Positions 14,839 through 21,399 of a DNA stretch of 55,677 nucleotides are shown here, piece after piece. The position numbers were made by a program, and so were the translations under genes. The notes below the pieces were generated by a model that ran no database searches, was not told the DNA's origin, and worked only from the letters and a program-made list of their open reading frames with translations. Every line of letters begins with the position of its first letter. The first letter of the stretch is position 1. This DNA comes from an uncultured Rhodospirillales bacterium (GTDB taxonomy: Bacteria; Pseudomonadota; Alphaproteobacteria; Acetobacterales; Acetobacteraceae), in assembly GCA_903823665.1 (NCBI GenBank), contig CAIJTR010000015.1, forward strand, positions 1 through 55,677, in the 5' to 3' direction.

Positions 14839-16005
14839 CTACGTCAGGTGCGGCAGGGCCAGATAGTCCTGGCTCTGCATCTCCTCCAGACGAGACGCCG
14901 TGCGCTCAAACGCCTTCGCACCCTCACCCCGCTCATAAAGCTGATCCGGCATCGCCTCGGCAGAGGCCACCAGCTTCACCCGGTGATCATACAGCGCGTC
15001 AATCAACACAATAAACCGCCGCGCCCGGTCGTAATTCTCAGGCGACAGCCGGGGAATGCCGTCCAGCACCAGGGCATGATAATGCGTGGCCAGCGCCAGA
15101 TAATCACCAGCCCCCAGCGCCTCGCCACACAACTGATCAAAATCGAACCGCGCCACACCCTCAGCCGCCTGCGGCACCACCAGCTTGCGCCCAGTGACCA
15201 TCAGCGTCTCCGAGTTCGGCGGTGCCCGCCCGGTGAGGTCCGAGAACGCCACATCCAGCGCCCGCTCCGCCCGCCCTCCAACCGGCACATGCCAAGTGGC
15301 TGAACCACGCAGCCGCGCCCGCCGGAAATCCCGCCCGCCTTCCAACACCAGCACGTCCAGATGCTGCTTTATCAACCCGATGAACGGCAAAAACGCGTCC
15401 CGGCCCGGCTTGCCGCGGAACAAATCATCCGGCGTGGTGTTGGACGTCGTCACCACCACCACCGCGCGATCGAACAGCGCCTGGAACAGCCGCCCAAGGA
15501 TCATCGCGTCCGCAATGTCGTTCACCTGAAATTCGTCAAAGCACAGCAGCGCCGCCTCAGCCGCAATCGTGTCCGCCAGCGGCGGAATCGGGTCCGATTC
15601 GCCCGGATTCGCCTGCCGCCAAGCATGAATTCGCTTGTGGCTTTCCTGCATGAACTGATGAAAATGCAGCCGCCGCTTCCGATTCACATCGGCGGCGGCG
15701 AAAAACAAATCCATCAACATGGATTTGCCGCGCCCAACCTCGCCCACAAGATACAGCCCGTGTGGATAGTCGGCATCGGCCCCCTCGGTCTGCTTGCGCC
15801 GCAGAAAGCGCGACAGCAGCCCAGCCTTGGCAACAGGAGCCAGCGGAGCGGGATCATATCCGCGCAACTTCGTCCAAAGCCCTTGCAGACGCTCAATCGC
15901 CATTGCCTGCGACGGATCAGACGAAAGGTCGCCGCGTGCCACACGTGCGCGATACGCCCCAAGCGGGCCGGCGTTATAATCGTCGGTGGGTGACTGGGTA
16001 TCCAT
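14839..16005 (-). CDS. zapE: Cell division protein ZapE (AFG1-like ATPase)
   Basis: This 388-residue AFG1/ZapE-family AAA-type ATPase has Walker A GEVGRGKSM in LYLVGEVGRGKSMLMDLFF and Walker B LLCFDEFQVNDIADAMIL with the family-typical DEFQV. RFIVLIDALYDHRVKLV follows near the C-terminus. In E. coli ZapE associates with the Z ring during constriction; in mitochondria the homologue helps clear respiratory-chain subunits. In many alphaproteobacteria it lies near TCA-cycle genes, as here about 1.5 kb downstream of sdhB. Confidence 0.92.
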   Translation of the reverse strand: MDTQSPTDDYNAGPLGAYRARVARGDLSSDPSQAMAIERLQGLWTKLRGYDPAPLAPVAKAGLLSRFLRRKQTEGADADYPHGLYLVGEVGRGKSMLMDLFFAAADVNRKRRLHFHQFMQESHKRIHAWRQANPGESDPIPPLADTIAAEAALLCFDEFQVNDIADAMILGRLFQALFDRAVVVVTTSNTTPDDLFRGKPGRDAFLPFIGLIKQHLDVLVLEGGRDFRRARLRGSATWHVPVGGRAERALDVAFSDLTGRAPPNSETLMVTGRKLVVPQAAEGVARFDFDQLCGEALGAGDYLALATHYHALVLDGIPRLSPENYDRARRFIVLIDALYDHRVKLVASAEAMPDQLYERGEGAKAFERTASRLEEMQSQDYLALPHLT

Positions 16006-16055: not shown

Positions 16056-16784
16056 CTACAGAAAATTGTTCGGCCAAATGGCGGTGCGCCACATATGCGC
16101 CGAGGGCGAGCCATCAAACCCCAGCCCCTCCTCCGGCTCACGAAAATGCCGCCCGATGATGTCGGTAAACCGCTCCGGGTCCGGCATCGGCACGTCGTCG
16201 AAGAAATACGTGTCGTAGATCGTGATCAGCCGCGACGTCATATACCATTTGTGATTGCGCGCCATTTCGGCATCCTGCCGAATATAGTCAGGCGGCACAT
16301 AATCAGGTCCAAAGAAGCGATAGTAACTCTCAGGATACTGATACCCCACGCTCTCATCGGCGAAATATCGCAGCGCCTGATGGTAGCGCACCGCCCAGGC
16401 AATCTCCTCACTCACATAGGGTGCGATCATCTGCGCGCCCCAATAGCCGTGATCAGACCGGATCAGACAGCCATTGGAAATATCGTGCAGCAGGCAGCCC
16501 AGCACCACCTTCTCCTCCAACCCCGCATCCAGCGCCCGCGCCGCACTGGTCAGCAAATGGCGCACCGTGATGTCGGTTAGTCGGTGACGAAAGAAATCCA
16601 GCAGCGTCGGGCGCTCCGGCATGCGCGGCAGGGCCGGATTGTCGCCCATCATGAACACCGCACCGCCGACCATCTTCTTGAACAAAGCAGGCTCAGGGTC
16701 TGGCACATCCATGCCACGAAACCCCACCGGCGGCGGCATGATCATCCGCTCACGCCCAGGTTGCGGCCATTCGGGTTCACACAT
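16056..16784 (-). CDS. HD-domain phosphohydrolase-like protein
   Basis: This soluble protein of 242 residues has an HD-type metal-binding core. An early histidine is in RHRLTDITVRHLL, and the tandem His-Asp is in VVLGCLLHDISNG. Further His residues are at RSDHGYWGAQ and VRYHQALRY, giving the H...HD...H...H pattern of small-molecule HD hydrolases. The start at MCEPEW avoids a Cys/Arg-rich upstream extension that looks non-coding. It lies between a tyrosine-phosphatase-like gene and zapE on the same strand. The substrate is unknown. Confidence 0.7.
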   Translation of the reverse strand: MCEPEWPQPGRERMIMPPPVGFRGMDVPDPEPALFKKMVGGAVFMMGDNPALPRMPERPTLLDFFRHRLTDITVRHLLTSAARALDAGLEEKVVLGCLLHDISNGCLIRSDHGYWGAQMIAPYVSEEIAWAVRYHQALRYFADESVGYQYPESYYRFFGPDYVPPDYIRQDAEMARNHKWYMTSRLITIYDTYFFDDVPMPDPERFTDIIGRHFREPEEGLGFDGSPSAHMWRTAIWPNNFL

Positions 16785-16833: not shown

Positions 16834-17496
16834 CTACTCGCGCACCAAAATCCGGTCGTTGATGAAACTTGACAATCCATGGGCGCGGAAATTCTGCCGC
16901 AGCGCCACCTCGTCATACTCCGCAGCCACCCACTCCAGGAACGGCATCCGCCCCTCCGCCACGCTGGCGTAATGGATGAAGAATGCGTCCAGAATTCCGG
17001 TTGAGGATCTGCTGATATGGCCGTAGCGCCAGGACAACTGCTTCAGCGCATCCGCCGCCGTGCCGCCCTCGAACAAAATCGCGAGGCCCGACGCAAGCCC
17101 CGCCCGATCCGCCCCGGATTTGCAATGCATCAAAGCGGGCGTTTGCAGCGTCCGGTAGATCTCCGCAAACCGCAGAATACGCTCCCGATGCGGCGCACCC
17201 CGGCTTTCAAACGCCATGTCGAGATGGATCAAACCGAGCTTTGCCGCCGCATCACGCGAAAGCGCATCACTGCCACATTTGCGCTGTCCGCGCAGGTTGA
17301 TCAGCGTCACCAACCCCAGCTTCCGCTTCAACCGCGCCAGCCGTCCCGGCGTTGGATGATTGACGCGGTAAAGCTTGCCCGGGACGACCTCAGCCAGATT
17401 ACCCCAGCCCAGACGCAGTACCGCATGATCGACAAACAAACTGTCGAACCAAGCAGCGGCCCGGCCCCTCGGCGAGGCCAGGTCGCCCTGGAACAT
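16834..17496 (-). CDS. Tyrosine/dual-specificity phosphatase-like protein
   Basis: This is a 220-residue cysteine-dependent phosphatase. The P-loop reads HCKSGADRAG (HCx5R with the Cys nucleophile and Arg), preceded by a strand and followed by a long helix. LYRVNHPTPGRLARLKRKLG and LVTLINLRGQ match the N-terminal part of the DSP/atypical PTP fold, where LxNLR is typical. It starts 4 bp after the sdhB stop and is probably the last gene of the sdh transcript. Its substrate could be a protein, a lipid phosphate or a nucleotide-like molecule. Confidence 0.8.
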   Translation of the reverse strand: MFQGDLASPRGRAAAWFDSLFVDHAVLRLGWGNLAEVVPGKLYRVNHPTPGRLARLKRKLGLVTLINLRGQRKCGSDALSRDAAAKLGLIHLDMAFESRGAPHRERILRFAEIYRTLQTPALMHCKSGADRAGLASGLAILFEGGTAADALKQLSWRYGHISRSSTGILDAFFIHYASVAEGRMPFLEWVAAEYDEVALRQNFRAHGLSSFINDRILVRE

Positions 17497-17500
17497 GACC

Positions 17501-18280
17501 TCAGGCCTGGCGTTCGAGCATCAGCGTTTTGATCTCGCCGATGGCCTTGGCCGGGTTGAGCCCCTTCGGGCAGGTCTGCGTGCAGTTCATGATCGTGTGG
17601 CAGCGATAGAGCTTGAACGGGTCTTGCAGCGCGTCCAGCCGTTCGCCGGTCCGCTCGTCACGGCTGTCGGCGATCCAGCGATAGGCGGCCAGCAGCGTCG
17701 CCGGGCCGAGATAGCGATCGGAGTTCCACCAGTAGCTCGGGCATGAGGTGGTGCAGCAGAAGCACAAAATGCACTCCCACATGCCGTCCATCTTCGAGCG
17801 TTCTTCCTTCGACTGACGGCGCTCGCCATCCGGGGGCGCCGGCGTGTCGGATTGCAGCCATGGCTCGATGGAGCGGTATTGCGCATAGGCGTGGCTGAGA
17901 TCGGGCACCAGATCCTTCATTACCGGCATATGCGGCAACGGGTTGATCTTCACGTCACCCTTCACGTCGGCAATCGGTTTCAGACAGGCCAGCGTGTTCG
18001 TGCCGTCAATGTTCATGGCTCACGAGCCGCAAATGCCCTCGCGGCACGAACGACGGAACGTCAGCGTGGTGTCCACCTCGTTCTTGATCTTGACCAGCGC
18101 GTCGAGGACCATCGGGCCGCATTTGTCGAGATCCAGCTCATAGGTGTCCATGCGCGGGTTCTCACCGTCATCCGGATTCCAGCGGTAGATGCTGAAATTC
18201 TTCGGCTTCGCAGCGCCCGGTGTCTTGTGCGTCTTGCCCACTCCAACCTTGGAGTTCTTCGGCAGGGTGAATTCGGCCAT
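17501..18280 (-). CDS. sdhB: Succinate dehydrogenase iron-sulfur subunit with in-frame UGA at a [2Fe-2S] cysteine codon
   Basis: The full reading frame is 259 codons, the normal length. Codon 87 (18020-18022) is TGA. It interrupts the [2Fe-2S] motif as [24 protein letters not shown]. Relatives have Cys here, and E. coli SdhB is known to use Asp at this third ligand position. The rest is undamaged: [16 protein letters not shown] and [13 protein letters not shown] supply the [4Fe-4S] and [3Fe-4S] ligands. Possible explanations are a base-call error (TGC or TGT to TGA), a true nonsense mutation, or UGA decoded as selenocysteine or cysteine. An ATG two codons after the TGA could allow restart, but the split would destroy the cluster. 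Confidence 0.9.
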
Positions 18281-18293
18281 GACTCAGAATTCC

Positions 18294-20105
18294 TCAGTAA
18301 ACGCGCTTCTTCGGCGGGAACACCGACACTTCATTGGTCAGCGTCTGCATCTTCACCGGGCGATACCCCAGCGTGACTTCGCCCTTCTCATTGCACCATG
18401 ACAGCGTGTGCTTCATCCAGTTCACGTCGTCACGGTCCGGGAAGTCGTCATGCGCCTGCGCACCCCGGCTTTCCTGGCGGGCTTCGGCGGAGACCATCGT
18501 GGTGATCGCGTTGCCCATCAGGTTGTCCAGTTCCAGCGCCTCCACCAGATCGCTGTTCCAGATCAGGCTGCGATCCGAAATCTGCACATCGTCCAGACCG
18601 GCCCACAGCTTGTTCATCTTGTCCACGCCCTGCGTCAGGCTCTCGGAGTTGCGGAACACCGCCGCATGCGCCTGCATCGTGCGCTGTAGGCTGTCACGCA
18701 TTTCGGCAACCTTGGTTCCGCCCTTGGCGTTACGGGTGCGATCAAACCGGTCTAGCGACGCCTCACCAGCGCGAGCGGGCAGCGGGGCCTGCGACGCACC
18801 CGGCTTCAAAATTTCCGACGCACGGTGAGCGGCGGCGCGGCCGAACACCACGAGGTCGAGCAGCGAGTTGGTGCCGAGACGGTTCGCGCCATGCACAGAC
18901 ACGCAGGCCGCCTCACCGACTGCCATCAGGCCGGGCACAATTGCGTCCGGATCAGACGCCGTCGGGCGCAGCACTTCGGTGCGATAGTTCGTGGGAATAC
19001 CGCCCATGTTGTAGTGCACGGTCGGCAGCACCGGGATGGCTTCCTTGGTCACGTCCACACCGGCGAACACCTTGGCCGTCTCCGAAATGCCCGGCAGACG
19101 CTCATGCAGCAGGTCGGCCCCCAGATGCTCCAGATGCAGCAGAATGTGGTCCTTGTTCGGGCCCACACCGCGACCGGCATTGATCTCCAACGTCATCGAA
19201 CGGCTGACGACGTCTCGCGACGCAAGGTCCTTCGCGGTCGGCGCATAACGCTCCATGAACCGCTCGCCTTCGGAGTTGGTCAGATACCCGCCCTCACCGC
19301 GTGCGCCCTCGGTGATCAGGCAGCCCGCCGGGAAGATGCCAGTCGGGTGGAACTGCACGAACTCCATGTCCTGCGTCGGCAGGCCCGCGCGCAACGCCAT
19401 GCCGCCGCCATCGCCGGTGCAGGTGTGCGCCGAGGTGCAGGACAGATAAGCGCGTCCATAACCACCGGTCGCCAGCACCACGCTCTGCGCGCGGAAGCGG
19501 TGCATCGAGCCATCTTCCAGGCACCACGCCATCACGCCGACGCAGGCACCTTCCTCATTCATAATGAGGTCAAGCGCGAAGTATTCGACGAAGAACTCAA
19601 CCTCGTGCTTCAGGCTCTGCTGATACAGCGTGTGCAGAATGGCATGGCCGGTGCGATCCGCAGCAGCACAGGCGCGCATCGCCGGGGTCTTGCCGTAATC
19701 CTGCATATGGCCGCCGAACGGGCGCTGATAGATGCGGCCATCCTCGGTGCGGCTGAACGGCACGCCGAAATGCTCCAGCTCATAGATCGAGGGAGCAGCT
19801 TCGCGGCACATATATTCAATCGCGTCCTGATCGCCGAGCCAGTCTGAACCCTTCACAGTGTCATACATGTGCCAGCGCCAATCATCCTCGCCCATGTTGC
19901 CAAGTGCCGCACCAATGCCGCCCTGGGCCGCCACGGTGTGGCTGCGGGTTGGGAACACCTTGGTGATGCAGGCCGTTTTCAGCCCGGCAGCGCCCATGCC
20001 GAGGGTGGCGCGCAAACCGGCACCACCAGCCCCGACCACAACCACGTCATAGGTGTGATCGATGATGTTGTAGGCACCGAGCGACGGCTTGGTGAAGGCG
20101 TTCAT
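18294..20105 (-). CDS. sdhA: Succinate dehydrogenase flavoprotein subunit
   Basis: This is the 603-residue catalytic subunit of respiratory complex II, which oxidises succinate to fumarate and passes electrons to SdhB. The FAD-binding dinucleotide motif is [12 protein letters not shown]. The histidine that carries covalent FAD lies in [18 protein letters not shown]. Active-site segments [31 protein letters not shown] and REGGYL-like [10 protein letters not shown] are present. The length matches alphaproteobacterial and mitochondrial SdhA. The gene is 13 bp upstream of sdhB and follows sdhC and sdhD. Confidence 0.97.
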
Positions 20106-20130: not shown

Positions 20131-20532
20131 TCAACCGGCCAGCGCCAGCTTCAAAATCGCGACAAGCGAGGCGATGGCCAAAAGGCCAGTCGCACCCTTC
20201 ATCGCCAAAATCGAGGCAAGACGTGTACGTTCGTTATGGATGTAGTCCTCAATCACCACCTGCAACCCCAGCGCCATGTGATGAAAGGTGATCAGCACGA
20301 GAGCGATCAGCAGAGTGGCGTTCACCGGGCTCGAAGCCCAGGTGGCGATTGCCGCGCGTGGCACGCCGATCAGTTTGTACATCACCAGAATAAACCAAAG
20401 TGTTAACGGCACGAGTGCGACGGACGTCACGCGCTCCGCCCACCAATGCGCCGTGCCGGATTTCGCGGAGCCAAGACCACGCGCACGGCCCAGGCCGGAA
20501 CGCATGATGGTCTGTGTCTGATGCTCTGCCAT
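20131..20532 (-). CDS. sdhD: Succinate dehydrogenase membrane anchor subunit
   Basis: This 133-residue membrane anchor has three hydrophobic segments ([52 protein letters not shown]). The family signature [17 protein letters not shown] supplies a haem-ligand histidine and the ubiquinone-site region. [16 protein letters not shown] is typical of the alphaproteobacterial SdhD N-terminus. I start at the ATG behind GAGGGG. Only 12 bp separate it from sdhC. Confidence 0.93.
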
Positions 20533-20544
20533 GTTCAATGCCCC

Positions 20545-20976
20545 TCAGACGACCACAAAGCCGATGAGCCAGGTCAGCACCGTCAGCACGCCGGTTGCGA
20601 TCAGCACCAGCTTGCCGGTGGCATGAACCTCAGACAGTTCAAAGCCATAGCCGCTGTCCCAGGCCAGATGGCGAATGCCGGCGCAGAAATGATACCAAAG
20701 GGCCGCGGTCCAGCCGAACAGCACCAAATGGCCGAGCCATGTGTGCACCACCGCCGAAACCGTGGCGAACGCACCATCAGAGGTTGCCGCCGCCACCAGC
20801 CACCACACCAGCAACAGCGTACCCGCCGAAAGCGCACAGCCGGTGATGCGATGGAAAATGGAGAGAGCCGACGTGATCTGCGGCTTATAAATCTGCAAAT
20901 GCGGCGACATCGGGCGCCGGACGGTTCGTCCATCGGTGGTGTGCCCGATGAAAATGGCTTCACGAACGTCGGTCAT
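20545..20976 (-). CDS. sdhC: Succinate dehydrogenase cytochrome b556 subunit
   Basis: This anchor subunit of about 143 residues has the SdhC signature RPMSPHLQIYKPQITSALSI, followed by HRITGCALSAG, and then three membrane helices. A haem-ligand histidine lies in HFCAGIRHLAWD. The start is uncertain. I chose the ATG giving MTDVREAIF; a GTG 16 codons earlier or the ATG before SPHLQ are alternatives because no strong ribosome-binding site is visible. It is the first gene of sdhCDAB, about 96 bp after the SMR gene on the same strand. Confidence 0.9.
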   Translation of the reverse strand: MTDVREAIFIGHTTDGRTVRRPMSPHLQIYKPQITSALSIFHRITGCALSAGTLLLVWWLVAAATSDGAFATVSAVVHTWLGHLVLFGWTAALWYHFCAGIRHLAWDSGYGFELSEVHATGKLVLIATGVLTVLTWLIGFVVV

Positions 20977-21072
20977 GTGATGGCTTGACTCCGCCAGATG
21001 TTGGGCATGTGCATAGACCTGCACTGTGACGTGGTCAACGCAAGTGCAGCATGACTGCCTGCGGAGCGAAGC

Positions 21073-21399
21073 TCACGAACTCAGCTTCAAGCCCGCCACG
21101 CCCGCCAAAATCAGGCACACGCAGAAAATGCGCATCAGCCCAGCGGGCTCGCCTTCCATGGCAATCCCCCACACAAGCCCGCCAGCCGCACCAATCCCGG
21201 TCCACACAGCATAAACCGTGCCCATTGGCAGCACCCGCAACGCCTGGGACATGCACACGAAGCTCACCGCAATCGTCAATACCGTCGCGGCACCTGGCAG
21301 CAGACGAGTGAAGCCGTCGGACATCTTGAGAAACACCACCCAGAACACCTCGGACAGGCCCGCGAGTGCGAGCCATATCCAAGGGTCGAGCCGCGGCAA
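21073..21399 (-). CDS. SMR-family exporter, SugE/Gdx subtype (guanidinium type)
   Basis: This is a 108-residue four-helix small multidrug-resistance protein. The conserved membrane Glu is in LAGLSEVFWVV, and FLKMSDGFTRLLP plus PMGTVYAVWTGIGAAGG match the SugE/Gdx branch rather than EmrE. Members work as antiparallel dimers that exchange protons for guanidinium or, in other branches, quaternary ammonium compounds. It begins 3 bp after the asd stop, so it is expressed with asd, and no guanidine riboswitch stands before it. Confidence 0.85.
   Translation of the reverse strand: MPRLDPWIWLALAGLSEVFWVVFLKMSDGFTRLLPGAATVLTIAVSFVCMSQALRVLPMGTVYAVWTGIGAAGGLVWGIAMEGEPAGLMRIFCVCLILAGVAGLKLSS

Follow-up and report, generated by a model that had tools for sequence, protein, structure and literature searches.

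A cysteine-based phosphatase gene behind sdhB in Acetobacteraceae with a possible role in lipopolysaccharide biogenesis

The window, by which we mean the whole 55,677-nt stretch of DNA analysed here, carries the succinate dehydrogenase genes on its minus strand in the order sdhC-sdhD-sdhA-sdhB, followed on the same strand by a phosphatase gene (called PHOS here), an HD-domain gene and zapE, as assigned with Pfam and NCBIfam models. The features are as follows:

20545..21024, minus strand: sdhC, cytochrome b subunit (Pfam)
20131..20538, minus strand: sdhD, membrane anchor (Pfam)
18294..20105, minus strand: sdhA, flavoprotein subunit (Pfam)
17501..18280, minus strand: sdhB, succinate dehydrogenase iron-sulfur subunit, with an in-frame TGA inside (ORFs, Pfam, NCBIfam)
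16834..17496, minus strand: PHOS, DSP/PTP-type phosphatase gene, 220 aa, ATG start (ORF, Pfam, AlphaFold2 model, Foldseek)
16056..16784, minus strand: HD-domain gene (PF01966, 22.2 bits against a cut-off of 22); its start was set at 16784, while the listed ORF extends to 16916
14839..16005, minus strand: zapE, AFG1-like ATPase (Pfam; NF040713, 421 bits)

The preliminary description of this DNA had reported a tyrosine-phosphatase-like gene that starts 4 bp after sdhB and is followed on the same strand by an HD-type hydrolase gene and zapE, and all of these assignments were borne out. The sdhB stop codon occupies 17501-17503, leaving a 4-bp gap (17497-17500) ahead of PHOS. This TGA stop contributes to a GAGG sequence that precedes the PHOS ATG, and the arrangement makes translational coupling of sdhB and PHOS plausible. 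No terminator-like sites were found in the 4-bp gap by pattern scan; the scan did place such sites inside the PHOS gene, and its total for the region is 5 where chance alone would give 3.7. The size of the gap suggests that PHOS is co-transcribed with sdhB. At the other end of the operon, a single small ORF (21073-21399, minus strand) separates sdhC from asd, the next gene upstream; the 108-aa product of this ORF by eye resembles an SMR-type membrane transporter. No lipopolysaccharide (LPS) gene was identified beside PHOS in the window.

The PHOS protein carries the P-loop HCKSGADR at residues 124-131, which has the HCX5R form of the Cys-based PTP/DSP superfamily. Among Pfam models, Y_phosphatase3 passes its cut-off of 22.2 with a score of 25 bits and three more DSP-PTPase models stay under their cut-offs, while the NCBIfam scan assigned no family. 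The pattern HC..G..R is present in 221 of 222 homologue-bearing loci and the full HCKSGADR in 202, these loci overlapping in part and representing 178 different sequences. The P-loop residue D130 is invariant over an alignment of 179 rows; D93, a candidate for the general-acid Asp of the loop before the P-loop, is near-invariant in 36 proteins of the family and falls outside the columns with at least 90% conservation over the 179 rows. The AlphaFold2 model of PHOS has a pLDDT of 86.1 and a pTM of 0.83, with the last 15 residues modelled poorly. A Foldseek search with this model matched 90 PDB entries at E <= 0.001, of which the 50 listed are all PTP/DSP-fold proteins by title and include Siw14, DUSP26, Cdc14, a plant PFA-DSP, TpbA and PTPMT1, with TM-scores (query) of 0.43-0.54. 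By its P-loop and predicted fold PHOS is a Cys-based phosphatase, a fold that leaves the substrate unnamed.

Bacterial DSPs such as TpbA of Pseudomonas aeruginosa share this fold, and a profile comparison puts them closest among proteins of solved structure (2m3v, E 4e-6; TpbA, 4r0s, E 5e-6). The P-loop of 2m3v has NNR where the PHOS family mostly has ADR, and the PHOS family adds further invariant residues including D23, R28 and R44. TpbA is a periplasmic protein. No signal or membrane segment is evident by eye in PHOS, so that a cytoplasmic location is likely. A PAP2 domain gave no match in PHOS, the matching Pfam models being all of the PTP type. In the database records examined, relatives of PHOS go under the names 'tyrosine-protein phosphatase', 'dual specificity protein phosphatase family protein' or 'sulfur transferase domain-containing protein'. 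Viral contigs held no relative; 51 plasmid records held a match, with a coverage of 80% or more in 13. Four plasmid neighbourhoods were examined, two of them with gene annotation: in Jannaschia the PHOS relative sits between the genes for mannose-1-phosphate guanylyltransferase and phosphomannomutase, and on the Azospirillum lipoferum plasmid no LPS-synthesis gene is named beside it.

In a sample of 150 Acetobacteraceae genomes, PHOS was found in 145 and sdhB in 133. PHOS lies directly downstream of sdhB, on the same strand and within 400 nt, in 61 of the 126 genomes in which sdhB was placed, out of 137 with a listed PHOS place. The adjacency that the preliminary description had noted is thus not limited to the window's genome, which is one of the 61; it is also seen in Gluconacetobacter liquefaciens, Komagataeibacter diospyri and Acidisoma sp. 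L85, among others, with 5 to 307 nt between the match ends. The remaining 65 genomes comprise 44 with the two genes on different contigs, which may in part hide an adjacency, and 21 with PHOS elsewhere on the same contig, in 3 cases 720 to 2548 nt downstream of sdhB. At the Gluconobacter PHOS loci no sdh gene was found within the flank examined. When adjacency to sdh was mapped as a label on the PHOS tree, it was clustered (11 changes, against 47 in shuffles). The HD gene was found beside PHOS at none of the other 109 loci, and zapE near it at four (L004, L032, L088 and L090), many of these loci having only about 1.5 kb of flank; the idea that these two genes belong to a conserved unit with PHOS is therefore unsupported.

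Both the co-directional adjacency behind sdhB and its clustering on the tree favour a role for PHOS in regulating or servicing complex II or a TCA metabolite, by dephosphorylating an Sdh subunit or a damaged metabolite; a regulatory or metabolite-repair link to complex II had indeed been raised in the preliminary description. We nonetheless consider such a role very unlikely, and the suggested link found no support. An accessory factor of sdh would be present only with sdh genes, but PHOS is retained in 13 of the 17 family genomes that lack sdhB, and all 13 are at least 98% complete; the four that lack both genes (G007, G052, G074 and G114) are 86-97% complete. Furthermore, the two genes are non-adjacent in the 65 genomes described above, some of which may hide an adjacency, and outside the Acetobacteraceae none of 44 homologue places is near sdh. 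In one genome with no sdhB match (G013), PHOS lies about 140 bp behind asd with no sdh gene between them; compared with the window, where asd is upstream of sdhC, this looks like a case in which sdh was lost and PHOS was left. The tight and conserved position behind sdhB would thus mislead about function, as PHOS outlives the operon.

The homologues outside the family keep different company. We searched 289 genomes of the class and found PHOS in 54, a share which argues that it is no core step of LPS synthesis; 44 homologue places in 40 genomes outside the family (E <= 2.1e-29) were used for neighbour counts, and 12 weaker places were left out. An ABC exporter-type gene (at least 35% identity over at least 1500 bp) lies within 1 kb at 23 of these 44 places, or at 27 by a looser count, and waaA, lpxK or DUF374 was matched in the stretch around the homologue at 11 of 44, with one of them (L193) having a WaaA-like match alone. 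The neighbour query proteins were taken from L168, which is itself one of the 44, and from L174; in L168, Pfam confirmed LpxK, the Kdo transferase N-domain, DUF374 and ABC_membrane/ABC_tran. There is no strong ABC neighbour at 21 of the 44 places and no waaA, lpxK or DUF374 at 33, some of the contigs being short, and 20 neighbours at the exporter-less places belong to mixed Pfam families (SBF, GT2, COQ7, HisG, MutL, Usp and others). These counts rest on tblastn; a codon-position ORF filter lost PHOS itself in 5 of 40 loci. The tree labels were not used for LPS linkage: nine rows are labelled ABC or waaA-lpxK, and many class rows from short loci are labelled 'other'. At the level of whole genomes, each of the 52 genomes of the class that match PHOS at E < 1e-10 also carries lpxK, versus 191 of the 237 others (Fisher p 8e-5, uncorrected for kinship); of the two genomes with a weaker match, G310 has lpxK and G187 lacks it. 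As a separate observation, by the TIGR01670 model for KdsC most of the sampled alphaproteobacteria are without an assigned Kdo-8-phosphate phosphatase despite having lpxK.

Within the family, a second kind of LPS linkage involves the Kdo hydroxylase gene kdoO (PF11004), found in 19 of the 150 genomes. In 13 of these 19, kdoO lies directly downstream of a PHOS copy, on the same strand and at a distance of 62-157 nt. The kdoO-linked copy is mostly a PHOS paralogue, and in six of the 13 genomes (G014, G051, G058, G094, G129 and G134) it is the only PHOS match. In the other six kdoO genomes, the two genes are 5.6 kb apart (G092) or on different contigs (G010, G034 and G091), or the genome has no listed PHOS place (G093) or no PHOS match (G052). 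More than one PHOS match was found in 21 family genomes, and both places are listed for 13 of them; 12 of the 13 second copies group with L076 in one clade (SH-aLRT 99), and kdoO is directly behind seven of the 13. The ten kdoO-linked rows of the tree all belong to a single set of 21 (support 93), so the link to kdoO may have a single origin. This branch keeps company with an LPS gene, and extending that association to the sdh-linked copies means crossing between paralogues. A further 33 loci of the family, taken for their second or non-sdh copies (L200-L232), all lack both a strong ABC neighbour within 1 kb and a match to waaA, lpxK or DUF374. The search found no kdoO in the window's genome, in 130 other family genomes or in the 14 control genomes. 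One example of the PHOS-kdoO gene pair is located at L204:6951-8585. A gene for a CNNM/CorC-type membrane protein precedes the pair in L202, L204, L205, L210 and L212, and L211 has a CNNM/CorC-type gene without kdoO.

The lipid A of Acetobacter pasteurianus is described, in the text available of PMC7956469, as having no phosphate, its positions 1 and 4' being occupied by glucuronic acid and mannose. According to the available parts of a study on Granulibacter, its lipid A has the same sugars and no detected phosphate, which in the view of the authors might be masked; the lipid A of Acetobacteraceae is called highly heterogeneous there, and a single LpxE-like phosphatase is named, with its role unproven, and compared with RL4708 and RL1570 (PMC8036547). 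Elsewhere RL1570 is given as the lpxF reference (PMC7663294, in the portion available), so the LpxE-like protein of Granulibacter may serve one or both positions. For Caulobacter crescentus, the same portion of that source reports an LpxE-like protein, CC_3019, and no LpxF-like one (PMC7663294). The tag CCNA_03113 corresponds to CC_3019, a membrane-associated phospholipid phosphatase. In C. crescentus, where mature lipid A is unphosphorylated, CtpA is hypothesised to remove the lipid A phosphates (PMC10331486, available text), and a title cited by PMC3981807, itself available in part, terms CtpA a tyrosine phosphatase homolog. CtpA may be a counterpart of PHOS, the likeness being one of description: both proteins are alphaproteobacterial, and CtpA is called a tyrosine phosphatase homologue. 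With LpxE and LpxF, PHOS would share the proposed reaction, the removal of lipid A phosphate; these enzymes are, however, PAP2-type phosphatases (PMC7663294, in part), whereas PHOS has the Cys-based fold and is therefore not a member of either family. A search of the literature by title, mostly outside subscription journals, turned up nothing on an sdhB-adjacent phosphatase in Acetobacteraceae or on a DSP-type lipid A phosphatase in this family.

The steps of Kdo transferase, LpxK and Kdo hydroxylase precede export and take place on the cytoplasmic side of the inner membrane. The company of PHOS homologues with lpxK, waaA and kdoO, together with the lack of an evident signal or membrane segment in PHOS, fits a soluble phosphatase acting there on lipid A or a Kdo intermediate. 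Judging from gene neighbourhoods and protein sequence, we regard it as about an even call that PHOS is a phosphatase of LPS biogenesis, likely acting on lipid A, Kdo-lipid A or a precursor, which rides in the sdh transcript. A soluble HCX5R enzyme of an uncharacterised alphaproteobacterial subfamily would then work at the inner membrane, on its cytoplasmic face, and most likely remove a phosphate from lipid A, Kdo-lipid A or a precursor of these before export. It would be made from the tail of the sdhCDAB transcript, a position that would provide steady expression, with a substrate other than complex II. Both the substrate and the chemistry are what we infer from this company, and we put lipid A or Kdo-lipid A first among the candidate substrates. 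A more specific form of this proposal, possible if doubtful, is that the enzymes of this subfamily, Cys-based DSPs located in the cytoplasm, serve Acetobacteraceae and other alphaproteobacteria as lipid A (4'-)phosphatases that act on Kdo-lipid A prior to export, beside the PAP2-type LpxE and LpxF, and that they are one reason for the phosphate-free lipid A of acetic acid bacteria.

PHOS could instead be a Kdo-8-phosphate phosphatase that replaces KdsC, that is, a soluble sugar-phosphatase feeding CMP-Kdo synthesis. No match to KdsC (TIGR01670) exceeds the cut-off in the 100 family genomes searched, 48 of which give weak partial matches, the text available on Granulibacter reports no obvious KdsC homologue (PMC8036547), and the PHOS homologues are linked to waaA and kdoO, both of which encode Kdo enzymes. 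In the class, however, KdsC is over its cut-off in only 6 of 289 genomes while lpxK is present in 243 and PHOS in 54, so that by these models most LPS makers have neither KdsC nor PHOS and something else must serve there; PHOS thus cannot be a general replacement of KdsC, and we think this role quite improbable. It is unlikely, too, that PHOS serves general signalling as a phosphatase of proteins or inositol phosphates, with neighbours that are only a matter of operon convenience. The profile and fold relatives (TpbA, Siw14, DUSP26, Cdc14, PFA-DSP and PTPMT1) single out no lipid substrate, and the neighbours of the homologues do vary, yet the LPS-gene linkage is frequent and recurs in two settings, at the class places and in the kdoO pair of the family. 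PTPMT1, which shares the fold class and is among the weak matches, brings to mind a phosphatidylglycerophosphate phosphatase of its kind; since a PgpA is already encoded in the genome (131 bits, cut-off 28), we give this reading very little credence.

If PHOS does act as a phosphatase of LPS biogenesis, a generically labelled phosphatase gene would gain a role in making the kind of lipid A without phosphate that has been described for two Acetobacteraceae, with the responsible phosphatases unproven in the available text of PMC8036547. Were lipid A itself the substrate, a Cys-based DSP would be a further chemical solution for lipid A dephosphorylation besides the PAP2-type LpxE and LpxF.

A further feature of the locus is the interruption of sdhB by an in-frame TGA at 18020-18022 on the minus strand (codon 87, counted from the ATG at 18280), which yields two ORFs, 18020-18280 and 17501-18016. 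The TGA stands at a conserved Cys of the 2Fe-2S domain, encoded as Cys in all 72 other loci that cover the site, and the interrupted gene is the sole sdhB match in its genome. Selenocysteine at this codon was considered and rejected: along with the Cys at all 72 other loci, selA gave no match in the window's genome, and the three best matches of the tRNA-Sec model are tRNA-Ser by ARAGORN (there are 11 weaker matches besides). The TGA is either a real nonsense mutation, which would cost the bacterium its complex II, or a fault of the assembly, which is in 211 contigs. Internal stops were also observed in two other sdhB matches, one with a TGA and two overlapping pieces (G102:C1:3544869-3545647) and one with a single TAG (G085:C1:398126-398905).
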